From assembly GCF_016865425.1 (NCBI RefSeq), contig NZ_AP023355.1:2230198-2294197 (forward strand): 64,000 nucleotides of DNA, read 5' to 3'. Positions 4,969 to 18,836 of the stretch are shown piece by piece. Every line of letters begins with the position of its first letter. The stretch's first letter is position 1. This DNA is from Actinocatenispora thailandica. GTDB lineage: Bacteria > Actinomycetota > Actinomycetes > Mycobacteriales > Micromonosporaceae. Under the pieces are notes generated by a model that was not told the origin of the DNA, did not search any database, and saw only the letters and a program-made list of their open reading frames with translations. The translations under genes were made by a program, and so were the position numbers.

Positions 4969-5718
4969 ATGGGTGAGTTGGACGGGCTCGTCGCGGTGGT
5001 GACCGGCGGCGGCTCCGGAATCGGGAAGGCGTGCGCGGAGGCGTTCGCCGCTGCCGGGGCACGGGTCGGCGCGCTCGACGTGCACCCCGGCACCCCGACC
5101 GACCAGGTGCTGCCGGTGACCGCCGACGTGACCGACAACGCGGCGCTCGACGCCGCGATGGCGGCCGTGGCGGAACGGTTCGGCGGCATCGACATCCTGG
5201 TCAACAACGCCGGCATCAGCTCGGTCGGTACCGTCGCCGACAACGACGACGCCGAGTGGCACCGCAACCTCGACGTCAACGTGGTCGGGGTGGCCCGCGC
5301 CACCCGGGCCGCCCTGCCGTACCTGCGGCGCAGCGACCACGCCGCGATCGTCAACACCTCGTCGATCGCCGCCACCGCCGGTCTGCCGCAGCGGGTGCTG
5401 TACTCGGCGACCAAGGGCGCGGTGCACGCGATGACGCTCGCGATGGCCGCCGACTTCGTCGCCGACGGGATCCGGGTCAACTGCGTGGAGCCGGGCACCG
5501 TGGACACACCGTGGGTGGCGCGGCTGCTGTCGCGTACCGCGGATCCGGCGGGGGAGCGTGCCCGGCTGCAGGCCCGGCAGCCGATCGGCCGGTTGGTCGC
5601 CGCCGACGAGGTGGCGCGCGCCGTCTGCTACCTTGCCTCGCCGGCGTCCGGCTCGACCACCGCCACCGCGCTGCCGGTCGACGGCGGCATGTTCGGTCTG
5701 CGCCTGCCCCGCGCCTGA
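4969..5718 (+). CDS. SDR oxidoreductase, probable 2-keto-3-deoxy-L-fuconate 4-dehydrogenase
   Basis: A 249-residue classical short-chain dehydrogenase. The NAD(P)-binding motif TGGGSGIG is at about residues 12-19, NNAG at about 81, the catalytic Ser at 131-132, and Tyr145-X3-Lys149 forms the active site. The segment NCVEPGTVDTPW after the active site matches 2-keto-3-deoxy-L-fuconate dehydrogenases, which produce 2,4-diketo-3-deoxy-L-fuconate for the FAH hydrolase at 819. GGAGG at 4960-4964 sits 4 bases before ATG 4969. It is the last gene of the fucose cluster; the fucose 1-dehydrogenase is not in the window and is probably upstream. The stop codon is the first bases of a tandem repeat. Confidence 0.88.
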   Translation: MGELDGLVAVVTGGGSGIGKACAEAFAAAGARVGALDVHPGTPTDQVLPVTADVTDNAALDAAMAAVAERFGGIDILVNNAGISSVGTVADNDDAEWHRNLDVNVVGVARATRAALPYLRRSDHAAIVNTSSIAATAGLPQRVLYSATKGAVHAMTLAMAADFVADGIRVNCVEPGTVDTPWVARLLSRTADPAGERARLQARQPIGRLVAADEVARAVCYLASPASGSTTATALPVDGGMFGLRLPRA

Positions 5719-5805
5719 CCGCCGCGCGCCGGACCGCCGCGCGCCGGACCGCCGCGCGCTGGACCGCCGCGCGCTGGACCGCCGGGCGCTGGACCGTCGG
5801 GCGAG
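5716..5805 (+). repeat. Six tandem copies of a 15-bp GC-rich unit
   Basis: The unit GGACCGCCGCGCGCC is repeated six times from 5716 to 5805 with drift at two or three positions. The first copy starts on the TGA stop of the SDR gene. A 15-bp unit keeps any reading frame, but no gene covers it on a convincing strand. It may act as a transcription-end or recombination-prone spacer; function is unknown. Confidence 0.9.
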
Positions 5806-8027: not shown

Positions 8028-10043
8028 ATGAGCAGACCGCACGGCCGGGCGGTTTCCGCCCGCAGACCCGGCGTGGTGGCGGCACTGGCCGCCATCCTGC
8101 TGGCACTGACCACCGCGGCCGCAACCGCCGCACCGGCACGGTCCACCGGAGCCGGAGCCGGAGCCGGGGCCGGAGCCGGGGTCGGGGTCGGGGCCGGGGC
8201 CGGGGCCGGGGTCGGGGTCGGGGCCACCGAACCCGCGCCCGCCTTCGACCAGCAGGTGCTGTTCCGGGCGCCGACCGACCTCGCCCACGGCTGCTACCGG
8301 ATCCCCGCCATCGTGCGCAGCACCCGGGGCACCCTGCTCGCGTTCGCCGAGCACCGGCTGGACAACTGTGGCGACGCGGGGGACATCGACCTGGTCGTCC
8401 GGCGCTCCACCGACGGCGGCCGGACCTGGGGCCCGGAACGACTCGTCAACGCCGGCCACGGCGACACCCACGGCAACCCGGTGCCGATCGTGGACCGCCG
8501 GACCGGCCGCATCCTGCTGATCAGCACCTACAACCTCGGCCGCAGCGACTCGCAGGGCTGCGCCACGCCCTGCCCGCGCACCCCGCACCTGCAGTACTCC
8601 GACGACGACGGTCGCAGCTGGTCGACCCCGCGCGACATCAGCGCGCAGATCAAGCGGCCGGACTGGGACTCCTGGTACGCCAGCGGGCCCAACCACGGCA
8701 TCCAGCTCCGGTACGGCACGCACGCCGGCCGACTGGTGTTCGGCGTCAACGCCGAGACCAGCGACGGCGCCGGGCACCCGATCGCCAACCACGCCGCGCT
8801 GATGTACTCCGACGACGGCGGCACCGACTGGCACATCGGCGCGGTCGACACCTTCCGGTATCCGGCGGGCGGCACCAGCACCCAGAAGCCGTCCGAACTC
8901 AGCGTCGCCGAACGCACCGACGGGTCGATCTACGTCGCCGGGCGCGAGCAGGGCGGCACCGACGTCGGCAACCGTGACTACGCGGTCAGCCGGGACGGCG
9001 GCGAGACGTTCTCGACCCCGTTCCGTACGATCCCGGACCTGGTCACGCCGATGGTCGAGGGTTCGGTACTACGGCTGGCCGGTAGCCGGCGGATGCTGTT
9101 CGCGTCGCCGTCCGACACCGACCGGCGCCGCTGGATGATGATCCGCTCCTCCTACGACGAGGGCCGCACCTGGGACGACGCGGACCAGGGCAGGCTGATC
9201 ACCACCGACTGGTCCGGCTACTCCGACCTGGTGCAGATCTCGGCCGACGGCATCGGCCTGCTGTACGAGGGCGGCACCGTCGACGCCCGCGACGAGATCC
9301 GGTTCGCCCGCTTCAACCAGGAGTACCTGGGGTTCCACCCGTCACCCGGGCCCAGCACACCGGACGTCTCCGGGCAGCACGCCGACGCGCACCTGATCGG
9401 GCCGTGGGCCGGCTCCGGATCCTCCCGCTGCCAGGGTGGAACGGCGTGCGGTCCCACGCTCACCGACGGCCGTTACGGCTCGGCCGTCTCGCTGGACGGC
9501 TCGGACGGCTTCGTCCGCGTCCCGTACGACCCGGCGCAGCTGCCCGGCGCGGGCGACTTCACCTGGACCGCCTGGTTCCGGTACGGCGCCAGTACCGGCA
9601 AGCAGGCGATCCTGTGGCTGGGCGGGATGGGAAGCAGGGCGCCGCAGGTCTGGCTGCGCGGTGAACCGGCCAACCACCGGCTGATCGCGCTGATGACCAC
9701 CGCGCAGGGCACCGCGTCGATCGCCAGCGCCTCGGCGTACGCCGACCAGCAGTGGCACCACGTGGCGCTGGAACGCCACGCCGGCCGGCTGACGATGTAC
9801 GTGGACGGAGCCGCGGTCGCCGCCGGCGACGCGGTCGCCGGTTCGGTCAGCCAGACCGTGTCGTTCCAGATCCAGGTCGGCCAGCGGCTGGACAACGCCT
9901 GCCGGTTCGACGGAGCGCTGGACGAGGTTCGCGGCTACGACCGGGCGCTGAGCGCCGACGAACTGGCCGCGGTCCGCGCCAACGCCCCGGTCCGCGACGG
10001 CCTGGTGCTGCGCCTCCCGTTCGACTCGGTCGACCCGGACTGA
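8028..10043 (+). CDS. Secreted exo-alpha-sialidase with C-terminal LamG-like lectin domain
   Basis: A 671-residue exported protein. Residues 1-36 form a Sec signal (basic start, Ala/Leu core, cleavage near AAATAAPA). Residues 41-66 are 13 Gly-Ala/Gly-Val dipeptides forming a flexible linker. The GH33 six-bladed propeller follows, with the YRIP motif at 90-93, whose Arg belongs to the sialate-binding triad. Asp boxes are visible as STDGGRTW, SDDDGRSW, SDDGGTDW, SRDGGETF and SYDEGRTW. About 455-660 is a concanavalin/LamG-like beta-sandwich (FTWTAWFRY, WHHVALER, DEVRGYDRALS). The enzyme removes terminal sialic acids from glycans outside the cell. ATG 8028 is preceded by AGAGGGG. The fucose pathway (1-5718) and alpha-fucosidase (47333) suggest use of sialofucosylated glycans. 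Confidence 0.93.
   Translation: MSRPHGRAVSARRPGVVAALAAILLALTTAAATAAPARSTGAGAGAGAGAGVGVGAGAGAGVGVGATEPAPAFDQQVLFRAPTDLAHGCYRIPAIVRSTRGTLLAFAEHRLDNCGDAGDIDLVVRRSTDGGRTWGPERLVNAGHGDTHGNPVPIVDRRTGRILLISTYNLGRSDSQGCATPCPRTPHLQYSDDDGRSWSTPRDISAQIKRPDWDSWYASGPNHGIQLRYGTHAGRLVFGVNAETSDGAGHPIANHAALMYSDDGGTDWHIGAVDTFRYPAGGTSTQKPSELSVAERTDGSIYVAGREQGGTDVGNRDYAVSRDGGETFSTPFRTIPDLVTPMVEGSVLRLAGSRRMLFASPSDTDRRRWMMIRSSYDEGRTWDDADQGRLITTDWSGYSDLVQISADGIGLLYEGGTVDARDEIRFARFNQEYLGFHPSPGPSTPDVSGQHADAHLIGPWAGSGSSRCQGGTACGPTLTDGRYGSAVSLDGSDGFVRVPYDPAQLPGAGDFTWTAWFRYGASTGKQAILWLGGMGSRAPQVWLRGEPANHRLIALMTTAQGTASIASASAYADQQWHHVALERHAGRLTMYVDGAAVAAGDAVAGSVSQTVSFQIQVGQRLDNACRFDGALDEVRGYDRALSADELAAVRANAPVRDGLVLRLPFDSVDPD
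8148..8225 (+). repeat. Hexanucleotide GGNGYC microsatellite encoding a Gly-Ala/Gly-Val linker
   Basis: Thirteen in-frame copies of a GGRGYC hexamer lie between the signal peptide and the catalytic domain of the sialidase. Copy-number change would lengthen or shorten the linker by two residues per unit without changing frame. Confidence 0.9.
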
Positions 10044-10050
10044 CCAGGCA

Positions 10051-10093
10051 CGCGTCCGGCCCGGCACCTGTGGTCGGTGCCGGGCCGGACGCG
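10051..10093. terminator. Bidirectional hairpin between sialidase and aceE
   Basis: An 18-bp perfect inverted repeat (10051-10068 against 10076-10093) with a 7-base loop lies between two convergent genes. There is no U-rich tail on either strand, as is usual in actinomycete terminators. It could stop transcription from both sides. Confidence 0.75.
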
Positions 10094-10107
10094 GTGCTCG
10101 GTCGAAC

Positions 10108-12882
10108 TCAGCTGTCCCCGCCGGCCTCCGCCTGCGGAGCCGCGTTCACGTCGTCCAGCTGGTACTTCTTGAACGCCTGCGCCGGTACCTGCGCGTCGAC
10201 CTCGCCGCGGCGGGCCAGCTGGCGCAGCGCCGTGACCGTGATCGACTCGGCGTCCACGTGGTAGTGCCGGCGCAGCGCCCCGCGGGTGTCGGAGTGGCCG
10301 AACCCGTCGGTGCCCAGCGCGGTGAAGTCGGTCGGCACGTACCGAGCGATCAGGTCCGGCACCGCCCGCATGTAGTCGCTGACCGCCACCGCCGGCCCGG
10401 CCGCGTCGGCGAGCTTGGCGGTCACGTACGGCGTGGCCGCCTCCTGCTCCGGGTGCAGCAGGTTGTGCTCCTCGACCCGGTCGGCGTCGCGGCGCAGCTC
10501 GGTCCACGAGGTCACCGACCACACGTCGGCCGACACGCCCCAGTCGTCGGCGAGCAGCTGCTGCGCCTTCAACGCCCACGGCATCGCCACGCCCGAGGCG
10601 AGCAGCTGCGCCTTCGGACCGTCACCGGCGCCCCGCGCGTACCGGTAGATGCCCTTGAGCAGCCCCTCGACGTCCAGGTCCGCCGGCTGTGGCGGCTGGA
10701 CGATCGGCTCGTTGTAGACGGTGAAGTAGTAGTAGACGTCCTCCGGCGCGTCGCCGTACATCCGGCGCAGGCCGTCCTTGACCAGGTGCGCGATCTCGTA
10801 CGCGAACGCCGGATCGTAGCCGACGACCGCCGGGTTGGCGTACGCCAGCAGCGGCGACTGGCCGTCCTGGTGCTGCAGCCCCTCGCCGTTGAGCGTGGTG
10901 CGCCCGGCCGTGGCGCCGAGCACGAAACCGCGCGCCATCTGGTCCGACGCCGCCCAGAACCCGTCGCCGGTGCGCTGGAAGCCGAACATCGAGTAGAAGA
11001 TGTACAGCGGGAGCATCGGCACGCCGTGGGTGGCGTACGCGGTGCCGGCGGCGGTGAACTCGGCGACCGACCCGGCCTCGGTGATCCCCTCGTGCAGGAT
11101 CTGGCCGTTGGTGGCCTCCCGGTACGCGAGGAACAGGTCCCGGTCGACCGGCGTGTAGGTCTGCCCGTGCGGCGAGTAGATCTTCGCCGTCGGGAACAGC
11201 GAGTCCATCCCGAACGTGCGTGCCTCGTCCGGGATGATCGGCACCACGTGCGCGCCGAACTCCTTGTCCTTCATCAGCTCCTTGAACAGCCGCACGATCG
11301 CCATCGTGGTGGCGACCTTCTGCTTGCCGGAGCCGGCGGCGAACATGTCGTACCGCTCCGGTTTCGGCGCTGGCATCGCGATCACCGGATGCCGGCGCTC
11401 CGGCAGCGAGCCGCCGAGATGCTTGCGGCGCTCCATCATGTACTGCCACTCGTCGGACGACTCGCCCGGGTGGAAGTACGGCGGCAGCACCGGGTCCAGC
11501 GCCGAGTCGGGGATGTCCAGGTAGAGCCGGTCGCGGAAGCTCTTCAGGTCGTCGGCCTTGAGCTTCTTCATCTGGTGGGTGGCGTTGCGGGCCTCGAAGT
11601 GGCTGCCCAGCGTCCAACCCTTGATCGTCTTGGCCAGGATGACGGTCGGCTGGCCGGTGTGCTCGGTCGCCGCCCGGTACGCCGCGTACAGCTTGCGGTA
11701 GTCGTGGCCGCCGCGCTTGAGGTTCCAGATCTCGTCGTCGGAGTAGTTCTCCACCATCCGGCGGGTGCGCGGGTCGCGCCCGAAGAAGTGCTCCCGGACG
11801 TACGCCCCGTCCTCGGCCTTGTAGGTCTGGTAGTCGCCGTCCGGCGTCACGTTCATCAGGTTGACCAGGGCGCCGTCGGCGTCGGCGGCGAGCAGCGGGT
11901 CCCACTCCCGGCCCCAGATCACCTTGATCACGTTCCAGCCGGCGCCGCGGAACAGGCCCTCCAGCTCCTGGATGATCTTGCCGTTGCCGCGGACCGGGCC
12001 GTCCAGCCGCTGCAGGTTGCAGTTGACCACGAAGGTCAGGTTGTCCAGCTCCTCGCGGGCCGCGAGGGTGATCGCGCCGAGCGTCTCCGGCTCGTCCATC
12101 TCACCGTCGCCGAGGAACGCCCACACGTGCTGCTGGCTGGTGTCCTTGAGACCGCGGTTGTGCAGGTAGCGGTTGAACCGCGCCTGGTAGATCGCCCCCA
12201 ACGGGCCGAGACCCATCGAGACGGTCGGAAACTCCCAGAAGTCCGGCAGCAGCCGCGGGTGCGGGTAGCTCGGCAGCCCGCCACCCGGGTTGCTGAACTC
12301 CTGCCGGAACCCGTCCAGCTGGCGCTCCGACAGCCGGCCCTCCAGGAACGCCCGCGCGTACATGCCGGGCGACGCGTGCCCCTGGAAGTAGACCTGGTCG
12401 CCGCCGCCGGGATGGTTCTTGCCCCGGAAGAAGTGGTTGAACCCGACCTCGTACAGGCTGGCCGCCGAGGCGTAGGTGGAGATGTGCCCGCCGACCTCGA
12501 CGCCCGGCCGCTGCGCCCGGTGCACCTGGATCGCCGCGTTCCACCGGATGTACGCCCGGATCCGGCGCTCGATGTACTCGTCGCCCGGGAACCAGGGTTC
12601 CTGCTCGGGCGGGATCGTGTTGATGTAGTCGGTGCTGGTCAGCGCGGGCACACCGACCTGGCGCTCCCGAGCCCGTTCCAGCATGCGCAGCATGACGTAG
12701 CGCGCACGCTGCCGGCCGCGGCTGTCCACGACCGCGTCCAGCGACTCGACCCATTCGGTGGTTTCCTCCGGGTCGATGTCCGGAATCTGGCTCGGGAGCC
12801 CGTCGCTGATCACCGGGCGCTTGCGTTCCGTGGCCACGGGTCGTCCCTCGTCATCTCTTGTGGAGTCTTCTGCTGCTGCCAT
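10108..12882 (-). CDS. aceE: Pyruvate dehydrogenase E1 component (homodimeric type)
   Basis: A 924-residue AceE, the usual length for the homodimeric E1 of actinobacteria and gamma-proteobacteria. It decarboxylates pyruvate with thiamine diphosphate and passes the acetyl group to the E2 lipoyl domain of the cytoplasmic PDH complex. The ThDP-binding motif GDGEMDEPE (about residue 255) through NCNLQRLDG, the GHISTYASA segment and GLQHQDGQS (about 645) are all conserved. The N-terminal 35 residues (Asp/Arg-rich) are variable in the family. ATG 12882 fits; MATERK-type starts a few codons inside are possible. It stands alone, divergent by 59 bases from the YjbQ gene. Confidence 0.97.
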
Positions 12883-12941
12883 CCTGCCTCCGATCGCCGG
12901 GTCGCGTCACGCGGGTCCGATCGGTGGGCGAGGATCGGCGC

Positions 12942-13352
12942 ATGTACTCCCAGGAGATCACCGTCCGCACCGGGGCCAACCCCACCGTCGCCGACCTGAC
13001 CGACTCCGCGCAGCGTTTCCTGGCCGGGGCCGGGCGCGTGGACGGCCTGCTGCACGTGTTCGTACCGCATGCCACCGCCGGCGTGGCGATCCTGGAGACC
13101 GGCGCCGGCTCCGACGAGGATCTGCTCACCGCGCTGGACGAGCTGCTGCCCGCCGACGGCCGCTGGCGGCACCGGCACGGCAGCCCAGGTCACGGCCGCG
13201 ACCACGTGCTGCCCGCGCTGATCCCGCCGTACGCGACGGTGCCGGTGCTGGACGGCCGGCTGACGCTCGGTACCTGGCAGTCGATCTGCCTGGTAGATAC
13301 CAATATCGACAACCCTGTCCGGACGGTTCGGTTCTCCCTGCTGTCGGGCTGA
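12942..13352 (+). CDS. YjbQ/UPF0047 family protein (secondary thiamine-phosphate synthase family)
   Basis: A 136-residue single-domain protein of the YjbQ (UPF0047) family. Conserved motifs are HATAGVAILE, the metal-binding GHGRDHVLPAL and LGTWQSICLVD. Some homologues show weak thiamine-phosphate synthase activity, but the physiological role is unsettled. ATG 12942 has GAGGAT 8 bases upstream. It is transcribed away from aceE across a short shared promoter region. The link to a thiamine-diphosphate enzyme next door may be coincidence. Confidence 0.88.
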   Translation: MYSQEITVRTGANPTVADLTDSAQRFLAGAGRVDGLLHVFVPHATAGVAILETGAGSDEDLLTALDELLPADGRWRHRHGSPGHGRDHVLPALIPPYATVPVLDGRLTLGTWQSICLVDTNIDNPVRTVRFSLLSG

Positions 13353-13400
13353 GGCCGGGGCCGGTTGCGAGGTCGTTGCGGACCAGGTCGGCAGATGCTC

Positions 13401-13406
13401 TACCGT
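13401..13406 (+). promoter_or_regulatory. -10 box TACCGT of a leaderless gene
   Basis: TACCGT ends 6 bases before GTG 13413. Transcription would start at or next to the start codon. Confidence 0.55.
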
Positions 13407-13412
13407 GTGCCG

Positions 13413-13880
13413 GTGTCTCGACCCCGCATCAATCCCATCCTGGCGGTCTGGCTCGGCGTTCTGCTGCTGATGGCGGTGATCGCCGCCATCGTGGGCGGCT
13501 TCCAGGCGCGAACGTACTTCGACGGCGAGAAGGTCACCGCCGTCGTCGGCTACTGCGAGACGCACCAGGAGTACTCGGGCGGCAGCAGACACACCAAGAC
13601 AACCTGTCACGGTCACTGGACGACCTCGGACGGCACCCGGCACGAGGGGACGATCCCCAACGCCGGGCGGTCCGACGAGGGGCGCCAGGTGACCCTGCGT
13701 GCGCTCGGTGACCGGGTCGTCTCCGGCAACGTGTTCGGCGCGTTGTGGCCGTTCGCGCTGACTGTCGGCGCGCTGGCCGTCATCGTGCTCATCCTCGTCG
13801 TACGGCACAAGGTCCGACGCTCGGCTCGGAGGGCGCCGGCCGACCCGGTCCGGTCCGGCCAGTCGGATCACGCTCCGTGA
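13413..13880 (+). CDS. Two-TM membrane protein, paralogue of the next gene
   Basis: A 155-residue protein with a TM helix near the N-terminus (AVWLGVLLLMAVIAAIVGGF) and another near the C-terminus (FALTVGALAVIVLILVV). The roughly 85-residue loop between is probably extracytoplasmic and has two cysteines (in GYCETH and TTCHGHW). The tail is basic. The loop is clearly homologous to that of the gene at 14005: both share a FQARTYF-like start, T-DG-H-G-IP and LRALGD-V followed by GALWP, so the pair arose by duplication. I do not recognise a named family with certainty (DUF3592-like in layout). GTG 13413 is chosen from the TACCGT box 6 bases upstream and the absence of an SD; ATG 13395 is an in-frame alternative. 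Confidence 0.75.
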   Translation: MSRPRINPILAVWLGVLLLMAVIAAIVGGFQARTYFDGEKVTAVVGYCETHQEYSGGSRHTKTTCHGHWTTSDGTRHEGTIPNAGRSDEGRQVTLRALGDRVVSGNVFGALWPFALTVGALAVIVLILVVRHKVRRSARRAPADPVRSGQSDHAP

Positions 13881-13991
13881 TTTGACGGTCGAGGACGGCG
13901 CCTGTCGCCGGCCGCGAGTTCGGGCGGCGGCGGGCGGGGCGGCCCGGCCGTGCCGGTGTGCCCGTGTCGCCGTGCACGTGCCTCGGTGACC

Positions 13992-13997
13992 TACGGT
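13992..13997 (+). promoter_or_regulatory. -10 box TACGGT of a leaderless gene
   Basis: TACGGT ends 7 bases before GTG 14005, the same arrangement as in the upstream paralogue. Confidence 0.55.
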
Positions 13998-14004
13998 GGG
14001 CGGC

Positions 14005-14778
14005 GTGTTCTCCAGACCCGTGCGTACCGTCGGTTGGCTGGTCATCGCCATCCTGATGACGGTCGTCTTCACTGCTGTCGGAATCTTCCAGGCACACACC
14101 TACTTCTCCGGCGAGACGGTCACCGCCCACGTCGACCGGTGCCAGACGCGCCGGGTCCACTCGCGGCACGGCAGTCACAACGAGACGGACTGCTACGGCA
14201 CCTGGAAGACCGCCGACGGCCAGCAGCACGACGGCGAGATTCCCGGTGCCGACAGCAACTCCGACGAGGGCAAGGACGTGCAACTGCGGGCGCTCGGCGA
14301 CGACGTCGTCGAGGACAGCTCGCTGGGCGCCCTGTGGCCGCTGGGCGTCGCCGCCCTCGGCGTGGTGCTGTCCGTCGCCGCCGGGTTCGCGGTGCGCAGA
14401 TCGCTGCGCGGGTTCCGCGGCGGCATCCTGGCCGGCGGCTTCGGCCGGGGCCGCCGCCCGCCCACGCAGTACGGCCCGCCACCCCCGCCGTACGGGCAGC
14501 CGTCCGCCCCGTACCCGCCGGCCGGCGCCCCGCCGGCCGGCCAGCCCGGTGCCCCGCAGTACGGGCAGCCGCCCGGGTACGGGGCACCCCAGTACGGCCC
14601 GCCCGGGCAGTACGGCGCGCCCCAGCACGGCCAGCAGCCGCCCCCGCAGTACGGGACGCGACCGCAGGCCGGGCCGGTCCCCGGGCAGTACGGCGCGGGT
14701 GCGCCGCGGGCCGATCCGACCGGTTCGCCGCCGCCCGGTGGTTACCCGCCGTCGTCACCCGGGTACCCGACCCGGTAA
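14005..14778 (+). CDS. Two-TM membrane protein with Pro/Gly/Tyr/Gln-rich cytoplasmic tail
   Basis: A 257-residue paralogue of the preceding protein. Residues 6-28 and about 110-130 are TM helices flanking an exported loop with two cysteines (DRCQTRR, TDCYGTW). A tail of about 105 residues follows, made of PQYGQP/PQYG/PPYG repeats and ending PSSPGYPTR. The loop aligns with the neighbour; the tail is unique to this copy. Such low-complexity tails are common on actinobacterial envelope proteins and may bind partners, but no function can be assigned. GTG 14005 is chosen from the TACGGT box; GTG 13996 is in frame but overlaps that box. The ~200 bases after the gene contain no ORF I can support. 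Confidence 0.75.
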   Translation: MFSRPVRTVGWLVIAILMTVVFTAVGIFQAHTYFSGETVTAHVDRCQTRRVHSRHGSHNETDCYGTWKTADGQQHDGEIPGADSNSDEGKDVQLRALGDDVVEDSSLGALWPLGVAALGVVLSVAAGFAVRRSLRGFRGGILAGGFGRGRRPPTQYGPPPPPYGQPSAPYPPAGAPPAGQPGAPQYGQPPGYGAPQYGPPGQYGAPQHGQQPPPQYGTRPQAGPVPGQYGAGAPRADPTGSPPPGGYPPSSPGYPTR

Positions 14779-14984
14779 GGGTGGGGCTCCCCGGACGGCG
14801 GGAGACACGTTAGTCTCCCGCCAACCCGTGTGTCCCACTCCGGCCCGGTGCCGGGATTCGCCGCGCCGGGACGGCTCGGGGAACGTAACTTGGTCGGTGC
14901 GGCACCATTGCGGTGGCGTATGGGACTATCCGCTGCGGCGCCCGTTCGGGCGCCACGGGGGCGACGACGAGGAGGCACTCGACA

Positions 14985-15419
14985 GTGAGCGCGACGGCTG
15001 GTCAGGCCGACGGCGTGACGAACGTGGCGGAACGGCTCGGGATCGAGCCGAGCAGCATCGTCACGGAGATCGGCTATGACGAGGACGTCGATGAACAACT
15101 CCGCGAGGCGGTCATCGACCGCTGTGGGGAGATCGTCGATGAGGACACCGACGAGGTTGTCGACGTGGTCCTGCTGTGGTGGCGGGAGGACGACGGTGAC
15201 CTGGTCGAGACCCTGATGGACGCCCGGAGCCCACTGGCCGACACCGGGATGATCTGGCTGCTGACCCCGAAGCCGGGGCGCGACGGCCATGTCGAGCCCA
15301 GCGAGATCTCCGAGGCCGTGCGCACGGTCGGGTTCCAGCAGACCAGCAACATCAACGCGGCACGGGACTGGTCCGGCGCCCGGCTGGTGACGCCGAAGGC
15401 GGGTCGCGGCAAGCGCTGA
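14985..15419 (+). CDS. DUF3052 family protein
   Basis: A 144-residue acidic cytoplasmic protein of the DUF3052 family, found across actinobacteria near aceE and peroxiredoxin genes as here. Recognisable blocks are VAERLGI, the VTEIGYDEDVD segment, VDVVLLWWREDDGDL, WLLTPKPGRDGHVEPSEI and GFQQTSNINAA.DW. The fold is unknown; the two halves resemble methyltransferase-like or response-regulator-like sheets only loosely. GTG 14985 has GGAGG 10 bases upstream. It is separated from the peroxiredoxin gene by 265 bases with no ORF of substance. Confidence 0.85.
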   Translation: MSATAGQADGVTNVAERLGIEPSSIVTEIGYDEDVDEQLREAVIDRCGEIVDEDTDEVVDVVLLWWREDDGDLVETLMDARSPLADTGMIWLLTPKPGRDGHVEPSEISEAVRTVGFQQTSNINAARDWSGARLVTPKAGRGKR

Positions 15420-15684
15420 CCGGTCATGCCGTCGACGGGCCGGGCCGTGCCAGACCGCCTGGCCGTCGGTGCCGGGTGCGCGGCCGGCGGCGGGTCCCCG
15501 ATCCGCCACCGGCCGCTGGGTCGTGCCCCGGGCAGCCGTCGGGCTGCCGGTGGGGTCACCCCCGGCCGGTGGCATGCTGAGCACGACCACCGGCGCCGTG
15601 GCGGCGGTACCGTCGGCGCTCCGCGCCGGCAGCACCCTGCGCCGCGCCGCCGTCGGGCAACAGACGAGGAGCGTTCGAGAGCAC

Positions 15685-16146
15685 ATGCCGATCGAGGTGG
15701 GCGCCCAGGCGCCGGATTTCACGCTGAAGGACCAGAACAACCAGGACGTGGCGCTGTCGGACTTCCGCGGCGACAAGAACGTGCTGTTGGTGTTCTACCC
15801 GCTGACGTTCACCGGCGTCTGCCAGGGTGAGCTGTGCGAGCTGCAGGAGAACCTGACGCAGTACCAGACCGACGACGCGCAGGTGCTCGCGGTCAGCGTC
15901 GACTCGCCGTACACGCACAAGGTGTGGGCCGATCGGGAAGGCTACGACTTCCCGATTCTCGCCGACTTCTGGCCGCACGGCGCCGTCGCCACCGCGTACG
16001 GGGTGTTCAACGACGCGGCGGGCATCGCCAACCGCGGTACGTTCCTGATCGACAAGCAGGGCGTGGTGCGCTTCGCCGAGATGAACCTGCCCGGCGACGC
16101 CCGCGACCAGGGCGCCTGGCGCAAGGCCCTGGCCGAGGTTGCCTGA
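15685..16146 (+). CDS. Peroxiredoxin, AhpE/BCP type
   Basis: A 153-residue thiol peroxidase reducing H2O2 and organic hydroperoxides in the cytoplasm. The peroxidatic Cys is in FYPLTFTGVCQGELCEL (about residue 45); a second Cys four residues later could be resolving, while AhpE itself is usually 1-Cys. The GTFLIDKQGVVRF strand is conserved. ATG 15685 starts exactly at MPIEVGAQAPDF, the normal family N-terminus; upstream codons in this frame are low-complexity. It is the last gene before tRNA-Val. Confidence 0.93.
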   Translation: MPIEVGAQAPDFTLKDQNNQDVALSDFRGDKNVLLVFYPLTFTGVCQGELCELQENLTQYQTDDAQVLAVSVDSPYTHKVWADREGYDFPILADFWPHGAVATAYGVFNDAAGIANRGTFLIDKQGVVRFAEMNLPGDARDQGAWRKALAEVA

Positions 16147-16185
16147 TCGTCCCCGACTGGCGGCGGGTACCCTCGTCGCCAGCCC

Positions 16186-16260
16186 GGGCGCGTAGCTCAG
16201 CGGAAGAGCACTCGCCTTACAAGCGAGGGGTCGCAGGTTCGAACCCTGCCGCGCCCACCA
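16186..16260 (+). tRNA. tRNA-Val (anticodon TAC)
   Basis: The 75-nt gene includes an encoded 3' CCA. The acceptor GGGCGCG (16186-16192) pairs with CGCGCCC (16250-16256), A is the discriminator and CCA follows at 16258-16260. The anticodon arm is CTCGC-CTTACAA-GCGAG with anticodon TAC. The T arm contains GGTTCGAACCC. Its 3' half is the crossover target of the repeat described next. Confidence 0.97.
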
Positions 16261-16284
16261 CCCGGCCACCAGTCAAGACCGACG
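16213..16284 (+). repeat. attL-like 72-bp direct repeat spanning the tRNA-Val 3' half
   Basis: These 72 bases, from the tRNA anticodon stem to 24 bases beyond CCA, recur without mismatch at 17199-17270. tRNA 3' halves are the classic attachment sites of tyrosine integrases, and integration leaves an intact tRNA at one end and only the 3' half at the other, as seen here. Confidence 0.8.
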
Positions 16285-16319
16285 TCTTTCGAACCGAACT
16301 CGATCTTGCCCAGGCCCTC

Positions 16320-16340
16320 TGACATCACCGGCTGACATCA
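16320..16340 (+). repeat. Paired TGACATCA arm-like repeats, left copy
   Basis: TGACATCA occurs at 16320-16327 and 16333-16340, a 13-base spacing. The same pair with the same spacing is at 17086-17106 near the other 72-bp repeat. Both pairs lie inside the presumed element, as integrase arm-type sites would. Confidence 0.6.
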
Positions 16341-16466
16341 ACCGTCCTGCCCGAGGGCGTCACCAAGGCGGCCCGCACGCGGGCCGCAGCGCCGGCCGCT
16401 CGGCCGGCGCGCGCCCACACCTCCAGCGCGGCGCGCGCAGTCCGGCAGCCGGCGCCCGAACGACAG

Positions 16467-16512
16467 CGGCCCGCACCCTCCGTTGATGATCCTCAACGGA
16501 GGGTGCGGGCCG
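16467..16512. terminator. Perfect 20-bp stem hairpin
   Basis: Arms 16467-16486 and 16493-16512 are perfectly complementary, with a 6-base TGATCC loop. No T-tract follows on either strand. It could be a terminator protecting the element or a structured RNA; the 544 bases from 16261 to 16805 otherwise hold no supported gene. Confidence 0.65.
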
Positions 16513-16610
16513 TCTGCATGCTGGCGGCACGGTCTTTGCCTCCGGCGGGGGCTCCGGCTCCAGGATGGGGGAGGAGCCAGCGCGGGTACCGGATCGCGAG
16601 TGGCTGGTGG

Positions 16611-16759
16611 CTCCCATCCCGCCTGCCGACGACCCAGGCGAAGCCGTAGCAGACCGCGACCAGGGCGCCAAGGTCGTTCGTCCAGTAGGGCGCTCCACCT
16701 TGGCGCCCTGGCCACGGCCTGCTACCCCAAGGGTGGGTCGACGGCAGGCGGGATGGGAG
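16611..16759. repeat. 149-bp imperfect palindrome (two nested inverted-repeat pairs)
   Basis: The outer arms 16611-16636 and 16734-16759 match at 25 of 26 positions. The inner arms 16646-16674 and 16697-16725 match at 26 of 29. The short bulges are 9 and 8 bases and the terminal loop is 22 bases. The whole would fold as one long hairpin in RNA or single-stranded DNA. Open frames that run across it are consequences of the symmetry and are not convincing genes. Confidence 0.8.
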
Positions 16760-16779
16760 AAGAATCGGGGAAGATGTTG

Positions 16780-16799
16780 CATTCGAATGTCGGTAGGTT
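16780..16799 (+). promoter_or_regulatory. TAGGTT -10 box with overlapping CATTCGAATG palindrome
   Basis: TAGGTT at 16794-16799 ends 6 bases before ATG 16806, which suggests a leaderless start. A perfect 10-bp palindrome CATTCGAATG lies at 16780-16789, just upstream of the -10, where a repressor could sit. Confidence 0.45.
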
Positions 16800-16805
16800 C
16801 AGGCC

Positions 16806-17069
16806 ATGCCTTGGGAACTGCCGCCCGATCCGGCGGAAGACGTGAGCAGCCGGGAAGAACTTGCGACATTCGTGCGCGCGCTCCAGGACGATTTCGCCCG
16901 CCGGGGCGAGGAGTGGGAGAATCCGACGCTCGACCGGTTCCTCGAAGCGCTCGCCGCGTGGATCAAGGACTCGCCGGGTTGGTACAAGAACTTCGGCCAG
17001 TCGATGCCGGAGTCGGGCGACTGGAAGTTCTTCGCGCGTGCGCTGGCAGCAGCGGTCATCTATGAGTGA
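16806..17069 (+). CDS. Small DUF7660-like protein carried inside the tRNA-Val element
   Basis: An 87-residue acidic protein with good codon bias (GC at third positions) and a compact globular composition: segments RRGEEWENPTLDRFLEALAAW, SPGWYKN and FFARALAAAVIYE. This resembles a family of small uncharacterised actinobacterial proteins (I recall it as DUF7660). Such genes are often neighbours of mobile or contact-dependent systems, but the function is unknown. There is no signal peptide or TM helix. It is the only convincing gene between the two 72-bp repeats, so it may be the cargo. ATG 16806 fits the TAGGTT box. Confidence 0.7.
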   Translation: MPWELPPDPAEDVSSREELATFVRALQDDFARRGEEWENPTLDRFLEALAAWIKDSPGWYKNFGQSMPESGDWKFFARALAAAVIYE

Positions 17070-17085
17070 ACACCACGCCTGTGCC

Positions 17086-17106
17086 TGACATCAGCAGTTG
17101 ACATCA
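17086..17106 (+). repeat. Paired TGACATCA arm-like repeats, right copy
   Basis: TGACATCA is at 17086-17093 and 17099-17106, with the same 13-base spacing and orientation as the left pair at 16320. Confidence 0.6.
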
Positions 17107-17198
17107 ACGACGACGGACGAGAGCGGATCATCCGATACATCAGGGCAGCGGCACCCGCTCTGCCGGACGAGTCGAGACGGTGACGGACCGGGCGGGTG

Positions 17199-17270
17199 CG
17201 CCTTACAAGCGAGGGGTCGCAGGTTCGAACCCTGCCGCGCCCACCACCCGGCCACCAGTCAAGACCGACG
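17199..17270 (+). repeat. attR-like 72-bp direct repeat (tRNA-Val 3' fragment)
   Basis: A perfect copy of 16213-16284. It begins in the anticodon stem and lacks the acceptor 5' strand and D arm, so it is not a functional tRNA. The preceding bases differ from the real tRNA, which marks the recombination boundary. Confidence 0.85.
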
Positions 17271-17759
17271 CTTCTCGAACAAGAAGTCGCCACAGCGGGC
17301 GACACGGTGCAGCCGAGGGCGATGCTCGACCTGCCCACGATGCGGTGCACCGAACGGCTTCCAGCGCGCCACCGTCGGCCTACCGAGAAGTGTCGGACCA
17401 CGGTCGAGGTGACGCTCGGGTGTCCGGGTCATGCCGCCTTGGTCGCCGACGAACACCAGCTGCCGGTGATGAGGTCGGCCCCGGGCCGGGCGCAGCAGCT
17501 CGGCAAGCTGCCGGACGGCTTCGGCGGCAAGTCCCACGTCGCTCGTAGCAGCCGCGAGGGCTTCCAACTCCTGAACCAGCACCATCGACTGACGCGAATT
17601 GAAGTACGTGTGGTCGTACTTGTCGACGCCGGCCAACAGCGGGTAGCGAGCCGGATCCCCCGCAGCGACCGCGCACAGTCGGTTGACGTCCACCGGAGCT
17701 TCCAGCCTGCCGACGACAGCACCGCTGTATTCGACGACACGAACTCCGATTGCCACCAC
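17259..17759 (-). CDS. Uncharacterised actinobacterial protein with run-on C-terminus at the attR boundary
   Basis: The first ~105 residues look genuine: VVEYSGAVVGRLEAPVDVNRL, RYPLLAGVDKYDHTYFN, QELEALAAAT and a last strand LVFVGD. This layout resembles small actinobacterial proteins of unknown role that normally end just after an FIGD-like strand. Here the frame continues for about 60 lower-quality residues (Arg/Pro/His-rich) and stops inside the 72-bp repeat. So the native 3' end has probably been lost or replaced where the element joins the chromosome. GTG 17759 is a plausible start (GATGAT 6 bases before it). Whether a functional protein is still made is unclear. Confidence 0.55.
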   Translation of the reverse strand: MVAIGVRVVEYSGAVVGRLEAPVDVNRLCAVAAGDPARYPLLAGVDKYDHTYFNSRQSMVLVQELEALAAATSDVGLAAEAVRQLAELLRPARGRPHHRQLVFVGDQGGMTRTPERHLDRGPTLLGRPTVARWKPFGAPHRGQVEHRPRLHRVARCGDFLFEKRRS

Positions 17760-17891
17760 GGCATCATCCCAGCCGGCGGCCAGTCGAGGTCATCGACGCG
17801 GGCGGCGAGCGGCGCCGCGTCCGGAGCCAGGTCGGGGGTTGAGTCGGCCGCCCGATCGTCGTGTCGTACGGGCCGGATCGGCGCGCCTGGT

Positions 17892-17897
17892 TAGGGT
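17892..17897 (+). promoter_or_regulatory. -10 box TAGGGT of a leaderless gene
   Basis: TAGGGT ends 6 bases before GTG 17904. Confidence 0.55.
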
Positions 17898-17903
17898 GGC
17901 GCG

Positions 17904-18836
17904 GTGCGGGCGGTACGGGGCGGGTTGTGGTTGCTGACGCTCGTCCTCCTGTCGTGGGCGGCGGTGCGGGTCGCCGGCGTGTTGCCGCCGTGGCCGGGGG
18001 TCGCGGTGCTGGCGCTGACGCCGTGGGCGGTGCTCGCCGCCGCGGTGATGGCCGGGCTGGCACTGCTGGCGCGGGCGGTGTGGGCGGGCCTGGCGGCCGC
18101 CGTCGCGATGGTGGCGCTGGTGGCCGTGGTGGTCCCGCGGGCGTGGGGCTCCGGTGAGGAACGCACCGGCCGAGCCCTGCGGGTGATGACGGTGAACCTG
18201 CGGATCGGCGGCGCCGACGCGGGTGACGTGGTGCGGCTGGTCCACGAGGGCAAGGTCGACGTGCTGGCACTGCAGGAGTTCACCGCGCCGGCGCAGCGGC
18301 GGCTGGATCGGGCCGGGCTCGCCCGGCTGCTGCCGTACCGGGTGGCCGATCCGGCGCCGTATGCCGCCGGCTCGGCGCTGTACTCCCGGTTGCCGCTGTC
18401 GGACGAGCGGACGCCGACCGGGATCGGCGGGTTCGTGCAGGCGTCGGCGACGGTGACGATGCCCGGCGGTACCCGGCTCGCGGTGCGCTCGGTGCACCCG
18501 TGCTCGCCGTACACCGCGGACCACCAGGGCTGCTGGACCCGCGGCATCGCGGCGGAACCGGCGGCCACCCCGCACGGCGTGCGCCGGGTGCTGCTCGGCG
18601 ACTTCAACGCCACGCTGGACCATCCGCCGCTGCGCCGGCTGATCGCCACCGGTTACCGGGACGCGGCCGACGTGACAGGGTCCGGGTGGCGTCCGACGTG
18701 GCCGGACGATCCGTTCCCGGCGGTCACCCTCGATCACGTGCTGGCCGACCGCCGGCTGGCAGTGCACGCGTACCAGGTTCGCCGGGTCGCCGGCACCGAT
18801 CACCGCACCGTGCTGGCCACCCTCGTCGTCACCTGA
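17904..18836 (+). CDS. Membrane-anchored endonuclease/exonuclease/phosphatase family protein
   Basis: A 310-residue protein. Residues 1-80 contain three hydrophobic helices (LWLLTLVLLSWAAV, WPGVAVLALTPWAVLAAAVMA, VWAGLAAAVAMVALVAVV). An EEP (DNase I-like) domain follows, with MTVNLRI (about residue 95), ALQEF (about 122), a GDFNATLDHPP catalytic segment (about 232), DHVLAD and the final GTDHR. The order and residues match the Mg-dependent phosphodiesterase/hydrolase fold. The catalytic domain probably faces outside. Substrate (nucleic acid, phospholipid or sugar phosphate) cannot be told. GTG 17904 fits a leaderless start. Confidence 0.88.
   Translation: MRAVRGGLWLLTLVLLSWAAVRVAGVLPPWPGVAVLALTPWAVLAAAVMAGLALLARAVWAGLAAAVAMVALVAVVVPRAWGSGEERTGRALRVMTVNLRIGGADAGDVVRLVHEGKVDVLALQEFTAPAQRRLDRAGLARLLPYRVADPAPYAAGSALYSRLPLSDERTPTGIGGFVQASATVTMPGGTRLAVRSVHPCSPYTADHQGCWTRGIAAEPAATPHGVRRVLLGDFNATLDHPPLRRLIATGYRDAADVTGSGWRPTWPDDPFPAVTLDHVLADRRLAVHAYQVRRVAGTDHRTVLATLVVT

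Follow-up and report, generated by a model that had tools for sequence, protein, structure and literature searches.

What is the 1-kb segment that lies between two copies of a tRNA-derived sequence in Actinocatenispora thailandica, and how did it come to be there? An earlier note on this DNA proposed an integrase-less element at the site of a tyrosine-recombinase integration, either a decayed remnant or a minimal element mobilized in trans, such as a satellite or MITE. The window, i.e. the whole stretch of 64,000 nucleotides that was analyzed, contains the intact integration target, a tRNA-Val(TAC) gene at positions 16186-16260 on the plus strand (ARAGORN; Rfam tRNA, 73.5 bits). It is the only Rfam match that reaches the gathering score; microRNA and other Rfam families considered for the hairpins of this region score below their gathering thresholds and were rejected. 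A direct, tRNA-derived repeat begins inside the tRNA gene and recurs at a spacing of 986 bp (16213-16294 and 17199-17280; 82 nt, 96%). Its first 72 nt are perfect (left copy 16213-16284, right copy 17199-17270, both on the plus strand), which bears out the description in the earlier note of the 3' half of the tRNA, with some extra bases, being perfectly repeated downstream. A scan for repeated 25-mers over all 64 kb gives, apart from this att-type pair, just a single local repeat at about 5700-5800, so the pair is not a chance occurrence.

The locus was compared within a search set of 61 genomes (A. thailandica, hereafter G000, and 60 relatives; the best seven or fewer candidates scored per genome), in which the genus is represented by four members, G000 to G003. 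The closest relative, a congener that is apparently Actinocatenispora comari (G001), has the same tRNA, followed by about 9.45 kb of extra DNA and then by the remaining sequence of the window in pieces. The G001 locus harbors an AICE (actinomycete integrative and conjugative element, pSAM2-type) with 10,141 bp between its att copies, which encodes a tyrosine integrase, RepSA (PF20199, 2.5e-148), DUF2637, an FtsK-like protein, DUF6879 and an HTH/DUF5753 protein. This 10.1-kb element possesses the int, rep and tra genes between att sites that a functional AICE calls for, and the window does not. No AICE is found at tRNA-Val in G002 and G003, where a short non-AICE sequence follows the tRNA; in G003 a DUF7660 fragment lies alongside the bare site. 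A 12.6-kb AICE occupies tRNA-Val(TAC) in another genus (G036, L084). The relatives thus differ at the locus rather than sharing one arrangement, and the comparison with sister genomes yields the empty sites for which the earlier note had asked. A full AICE in one congener and element-free sites in two others support two of the earlier proposals, that a tyrosine recombinase carried out the integration and that the segment is a decayed remnant.

Alignment to the G001 element defines the left part of the cassette. Its left end is 93.8% identical to G001 (90/96 aligned bases) and includes the 3' end of a tyrosine integrase gene on the minus strand (16338-16366), identified by comparison with the C-terminus of the G001 integrase as the last 8 codons, GDALGQDG, plus the stop. 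This fragment is joined directly, at 16366/16367, to the right-end block of an AICE, and about 9.46 kb of the G001 AICE are missing at the junction. The right-end block with its hairpins (16367-16767) is 95.2% identical to G001 (379/398), and its first portion (16367-16514, plus strand), with a hairpin at 16467-16512, is also present in a G003 element (L033). Because the junction has almost no bases common to both parent sequences, the deletion is likely the result of illegitimate recombination. The enclosed DNA contains the large hairpins that had been noticed before, at 16467-16512 and 16611-16759, the latter within a conserved module of about 220 nt, HP2 (16538-16759, plus strand). Two other early observations require qualification. 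No integrase gene lies inside, although the last eight codons of one remain; and only one gene has a family match, since DUF7660 is the only Pfam match of the ORFs between the repeats, but five further ORFs of 104-169 aa without a Pfam match lie in the interval or overlap it.

Each end of the cassette carries one exact copy of TGACATCA-N5-TGACATCA on the plus strand, at 16320-16340, which is 60 nt from the tRNA end, and at 17086-17106, which is 93 nt before the right core. These are the only two in the window (0.00 expected); among 101 genomes, exact copies occur twice in G000 (7.4 Mb), twice in G001 and once in each of two further genomes. Both spacings are kept in G001 despite a 20% divergence of the right region. 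By their repetition, position and spacing, the TGACATCA pairs look like integrase arm-type sites. The core repeats and the paired putative arm sites at conserved spacing represent a retained attL and attR; of the integration genes only the eight int codons are left, and the transfer genes are lost, those that encode Rep and the FtsK-like protein in G001 falling within the missing 9.46 kb. This organization matches the structural description of a cis-mobilizable element (CIME), and the cassette can be regarded as CIME-like; CIMEs are generally larger than this cassette. The attR pattern, one arm plus the core, was detected in 2 of 354 family genomes, namely G000 and G001. A search for an intact cognate integrase in G000 was negative. 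The best relative of the G001 integrase in this genome shares 43% identity and is broken by one TGA stop, and the others share 37% or less, so that no helper is apparent.

These features also bear on a simpler origin, namely that the 3' half of the tRNA was duplicated locally and unrelated DNA separates the copies. The repeat copies are indeed short and near each other, but the enclosed DNA opens with an AICE left end that includes the int 3' end and holds the hairpins of an AICE right end, paired arm motifs are found at both ends, and G001 has the full AICE. A plain duplication explains none of these parts and is almost certainly not the origin of the cassette.

The right portion of the cassette is more diverged and points to a composite locus. 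The DUF7660 gene (16806-17069, plus strand; 87 aa; PF24693, 1e-25) shares 80.7% identity with G001 (213/264), and the right arm region 80.0% (96/120), compared with 94-95% in the left portion; with a dN of 0.16 and a dS of 0.50 relative to G001, the gene reads as coding. The order in G001 is hairpins, att and DUF7660, the gene being located just outside attR, and the order in the window is hairpins, DUF7660 and att. The presence of DUF7660 inside the repeats here and outside in G001 requires at least two elements and a second deletion, of which no stepwise intermediates were found among the genomes compared (four of the genus). Only about 55 bp of the repeat, the tRNA-derived core (about 16213-16267 in the left copy, plus strand), are common to the element-free site of G003. 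The other bases of the 72-bp repeat correspond to the int-side end of the AICE, so that what adjoins the right copy is element-like sequence rather than chromosome. Comparison with AICEs shows that positions 17254-17280 (plus strand), beyond the right core, resemble such an int-side end and constitute a trace of another element. Further to the right, a cargo remnant at 17442-17778 (minus strand), overlapping the ORF 17259-17759, is related to AICE cargo in G003 that adjoins an HTH gene sharing 97% identity with its counterpart in the G001 AICE. Synteny with G001 picks up again at 17841, and the neighboring genes encode AhpC/TSA-family, DUF3052 and endonuclease/exonuclease/phosphatase-family proteins. 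From the differing identities, the gene order and the AICE traces right of the repeat, we infer an accretion of several elements: the locus would comprise parts of at least two, and probably three, elements, with the order and number of events reconstructed from these comparisons. An origin is assigned to the entire cassette apart from about 23 nt at 16768-16790. The proposal that AICE parts are more alike between the two species than the backbone was dropped, as two backbone genes are 97.6% and 90.3% identical. The minus-strand ORF 17259-17759 is itself a remnant of a cargo-protein gene without a Pfam match, and its homologue in G003 is split by a DDE transposase gene (L033, 7793-8599).

DUF7660 was found in 8 of the 61 genomes, G000 included. 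Searches of this protein against known structures (best E 0.49) and with PADLOC gave no match, and no HP2 was found near DUF7660 in the four gene contexts inspected. In G011 (L218, 6998-16490), a DUF7660 gene is enclosed by two 43-nt tRNA-Pro repeats at a distance of 9.46 kb, an interval that gave no integrase hit, and on this ground DUF7660 may be a cargo of att-flanked islands.

The part of the cassette that is dispersed is HP2. A whole-cassette match was obtained only in G000 among the 61 genomes (best seven or fewer candidates each), so the same 1-kb cassette did not turn up at other tRNAs; a MITE, which should exist in many dispersed copies, was rejected on this basis, since just the hairpin module is dispersed. 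Twenty HP2 copies were aligned, that of the window and 19 more, L074 and L075 yielding no copy at the threshold applied; most begin with GCCTCCGG and end with GGGATGG, with unlike flanks. The module contains a 143-nt hairpin (16614-16756) that covaries. The covariation alignment consists of 59 hairpins, i.e. those 20 and 39 distinct ones from a wider scan, with 58 distinct rows. The structure has 38 supported pairs, with 98.1% of the cells paired and 17 pairs changed on both sides. Its covariation score of 0.283, favored by the derivation of the structure from the same alignment, compares with a shuffled mean of 0.074 (reached in 0 of 500 shuffles) and with values of at most 0.054 when the structure is slid along the alignment; for further pair types, the observed value was reached in 12 of 500 shuffles. 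The wider scan returned at least 120 stretches, from which a list of 80 loci was drawn up; 41 hits, 39 of them distinct, allowed the hairpin to be delimited over its full length. The genera among the matches listed include Streptomyces, Micromonospora, Salinispora, Nonomuraea and Actinomadura. Plasmid records with an HP2 match numbered 6 and 15.

The distribution of HP2 also bears on whether the cassette is a remnant of an integrated phage. A tyrosine integrase at a tRNA gene is likewise usual for phages and would fit such an origin, but the matching G001 element carries RepSA, FtsK-like and DUF2637 genes, and two HP2 queries found no match in 50,697 phage records. We attach next to no probability to the phage origin.

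HP2 is frequently located near a replication gene of AICEs. Fifty HP2 places were hand-picked from the 61 genomes (best 12 candidates in nearly all) with E ≤ 1e-10, at least 100 nt and one strand per place, leaving out shorter and weaker rows. A RepSA row lies within 15 kb of 27 of them, upstream in 22 and downstream in 5 (four of the latter in one G003 array). HP2 is on the opposite strand in all 27, although the fixed gene order of AICEs would produce this result for any feature located at an end. The other 23 places comprise 14 on contigs without a RepSA row and nine that are more than 440 kb away from one, four of these nine in G000. Conversely, only 28 of 91 RepSA rows, a count that excludes sub-threshold rows and additional fragments of rep genes already included, have HP2 within 15 kb, and the module is therefore not universal in AICEs. 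Among the 80 loci listed in the wider scan, RepSA was detected in 22 and is upstream and on the opposite strand in every one. A covarying stem-loop with RepSA within 15 kb of 27 of its 50 copies agrees in structure with a single-strand origin (sso), a stem-loop in a rolling-circle element; by definition, an sso depends on its orientation relative to replication and promotes synthesis of the second strand. Our guess is that HP2 is an sso, with a transfer locus (clt) as the rival; given the fixed AICE gene order, strand alone cannot decide between them. Definitions of both are found in excerpts of PMC4595007 and PMC3583192. In titles and abstract openings of the open-licence PMC literature, no conserved hairpin at AICE ends was found; the nearest feature listed, in PMC4170104, is a palindromic motif of short length to which a pIJ101 protein binds.

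Nine more tRNA-repeat islands hold HP2 and no intact integrase. Three are located in G000: L073 at tRNA-Asn (3.1 kb), L074 at tRNA-Val GAC (4.1 kb), and L075 at tRNA-Ala (3.3 kb), with a broken int and only a 69-nt fragment of HP2. The remaining ones are L077 of G030 (2.1 kb), L083 of G034 (8897-18425, 9.5 kb), L093 of Salinispora pacifica (1.6 kb), L121 and L156 of Streptomyces (3.2 and 4.8 kb), and L122 of Micromonospora (2.0 kb), in which HP2 is opposite in orientation to its tRNA. Between its tRNA-Thr repeats, L083 carries HP2, a fragment from the C-terminus of an integrase, and DarT together with DarG (PADLOC, 4.3e-60 and 1.6e-127). The nine were drawn from sets of 23 and 84 loci that are often only 8 kb long and do not, therefore, represent a frequency. 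Excluded before this count were L112 (a 20-nt repeat not enclosing HP2), L218 (no HP2), and L031, L071, L084 and L139 (integrase present). Integrase fragments were found in seven of the nine: six with a custom profile, on the tRNA side of the island (best E 1.3e-17, 2.6e-6, 5.6e-48, 5.4e-11, 3.7e-20 and 5.8e-13, per small set of frames), and that of L083 with Pfam (3.7e-9). L077 and L156 show no integrase trace. Recurrent deletion endpoints near HP2 were not counted as evidence, as the islands had been found through HP2.

The cassette could alternatively be a helper-dependent satellite, a selected minimal element made up of arm-bearing att sites, HP2 and a single cargo gene, which AICEs would excise, replicate and transfer in trans. 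The retention of both att arms at conserved spacing, despite a 20% divergence of the right arm region, argues for this, as do the nine islands, spread over G000, its family, Salinispora, Micromonospora and Streptomyces, one of them with DarT and DarG. On the other hand, the integrase fragments next to the tRNA in most of the islands favor decay over a satellite lifestyle, and the presence of HP2 in them proves nothing, the module having served as the search bait. The cassette itself has no replication gene left, its whole-length match is confined to G000 within the set searched, and its attR pattern to two genomes of the family. No paper combining AICE, satellite, Streptomyces and integrase was found in the open-licence PMC literature. 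We consider the satellite explanation of the cassette very unlikely. The broader reading, in which HP2 is an undescribed cis-acting part of AICEs (sso or clt) and the integrase-less HP2 islands are helper-dependent AICE satellites rather than dead relics, is also unlikely in our judgment.

Other AICE-related loci were observed during this survey. On G003 C1, at about 3.883-3.963 Mb (in part in L070), five HP2 copies at a spacing of about 16 kb, with repeated RepSA and integrase hits, apparently form a tandem AICE array. The loci L033 and L069 (G003 C1, 310-340 kb) contain an AICE that matches the G001 element at about 97-98% identity in its FtsK-like, RepSA and HTH proteins; its integrase, only 38% identical to that of G001, adjoins tRNA-Ala, in what represents an integrase and target swap. 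A compact 6.3-kb element of Streptomyces sp. NK15101 (L139), with tRNA-Pro repeats, an integrase, RepSA and HP2 and no FtsK-like hit, is a candidate helper-dependent AICE. The only RepSA matches of G000, three pieces at C1 5988515-5990118, are probably a broken AICE.

The cassette is best explained, with high confidence, by ordinary AICE decay with accretion, as a deletion relic of a conjugative element of about 10 kb. A succession of AICEs would have taken tRNA-Val as attB. One, close to that of G001, lost the approximately 9.46 kb that separated its int 3' end from its right-end hairpins; a second, more diverged element may have supplied the DUF7660 gene together with the present right arm and att site, and a third would account for the traces beyond the right repeat. 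The outcome would be a transfer-less and integrase-less cassette between an apparently complete attL and attR, each with a core and paired arm sites. Such a cassette is expected to be inert alone. Because both att sites survive with their putative arms, later mobilization by a related incoming element might be possible, the recombination proteins of a cognate AICE moving the cassette in cis, by accretion, or in trans.

We conclude that the locus is an ordinary and well-explained relic with a hairpin module that deserves study. It is a compact and clear example of how AICEs decay and accrete, the near-complete parent being present in a congener, and illustrates that the two att sites, together with their presumed arms, can outlast all other AICE parts. 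HP2, for its part, provides a handle on AICE ends and relics that escape searches based on genes, and raises a testable question about the mode of AICE replication or transfer. Remnants of AICEs, as well as AICEs in tandem, are described in PMC3218068. For Streptomyces, PMC9513070 reports AICEs that have decayed until part of the integrase, the cargo and a pair of direct repeats are left, for which later mobilization in cis is suggested. The window resembles these in its layout at the att site and in the empty and full versions found in relatives; the Streptomyces example resides in a glycosyltransferase gene, whereas the present case concerns another genus, tRNA-Val, about 1 kb and two or three layers. 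As defined in an excerpt of PMC5704250, a CIME has lost its integration and transfer genes and kept attL and attR; the window cassette shares both losses and both att sites, and differs in its AICE origin. Finally, the module is shared with the plasmid pMR2 of Micromonospora rosaria (NC_006910), in which HP2 is positioned between the cargo genes and the int 3' end. pMR2, annotated with integrase, excisionase, replication initiator and FtsK/SpoIIIE genes, is a complete 11.2-kb element with another integrase, whereas the window has just the ends.
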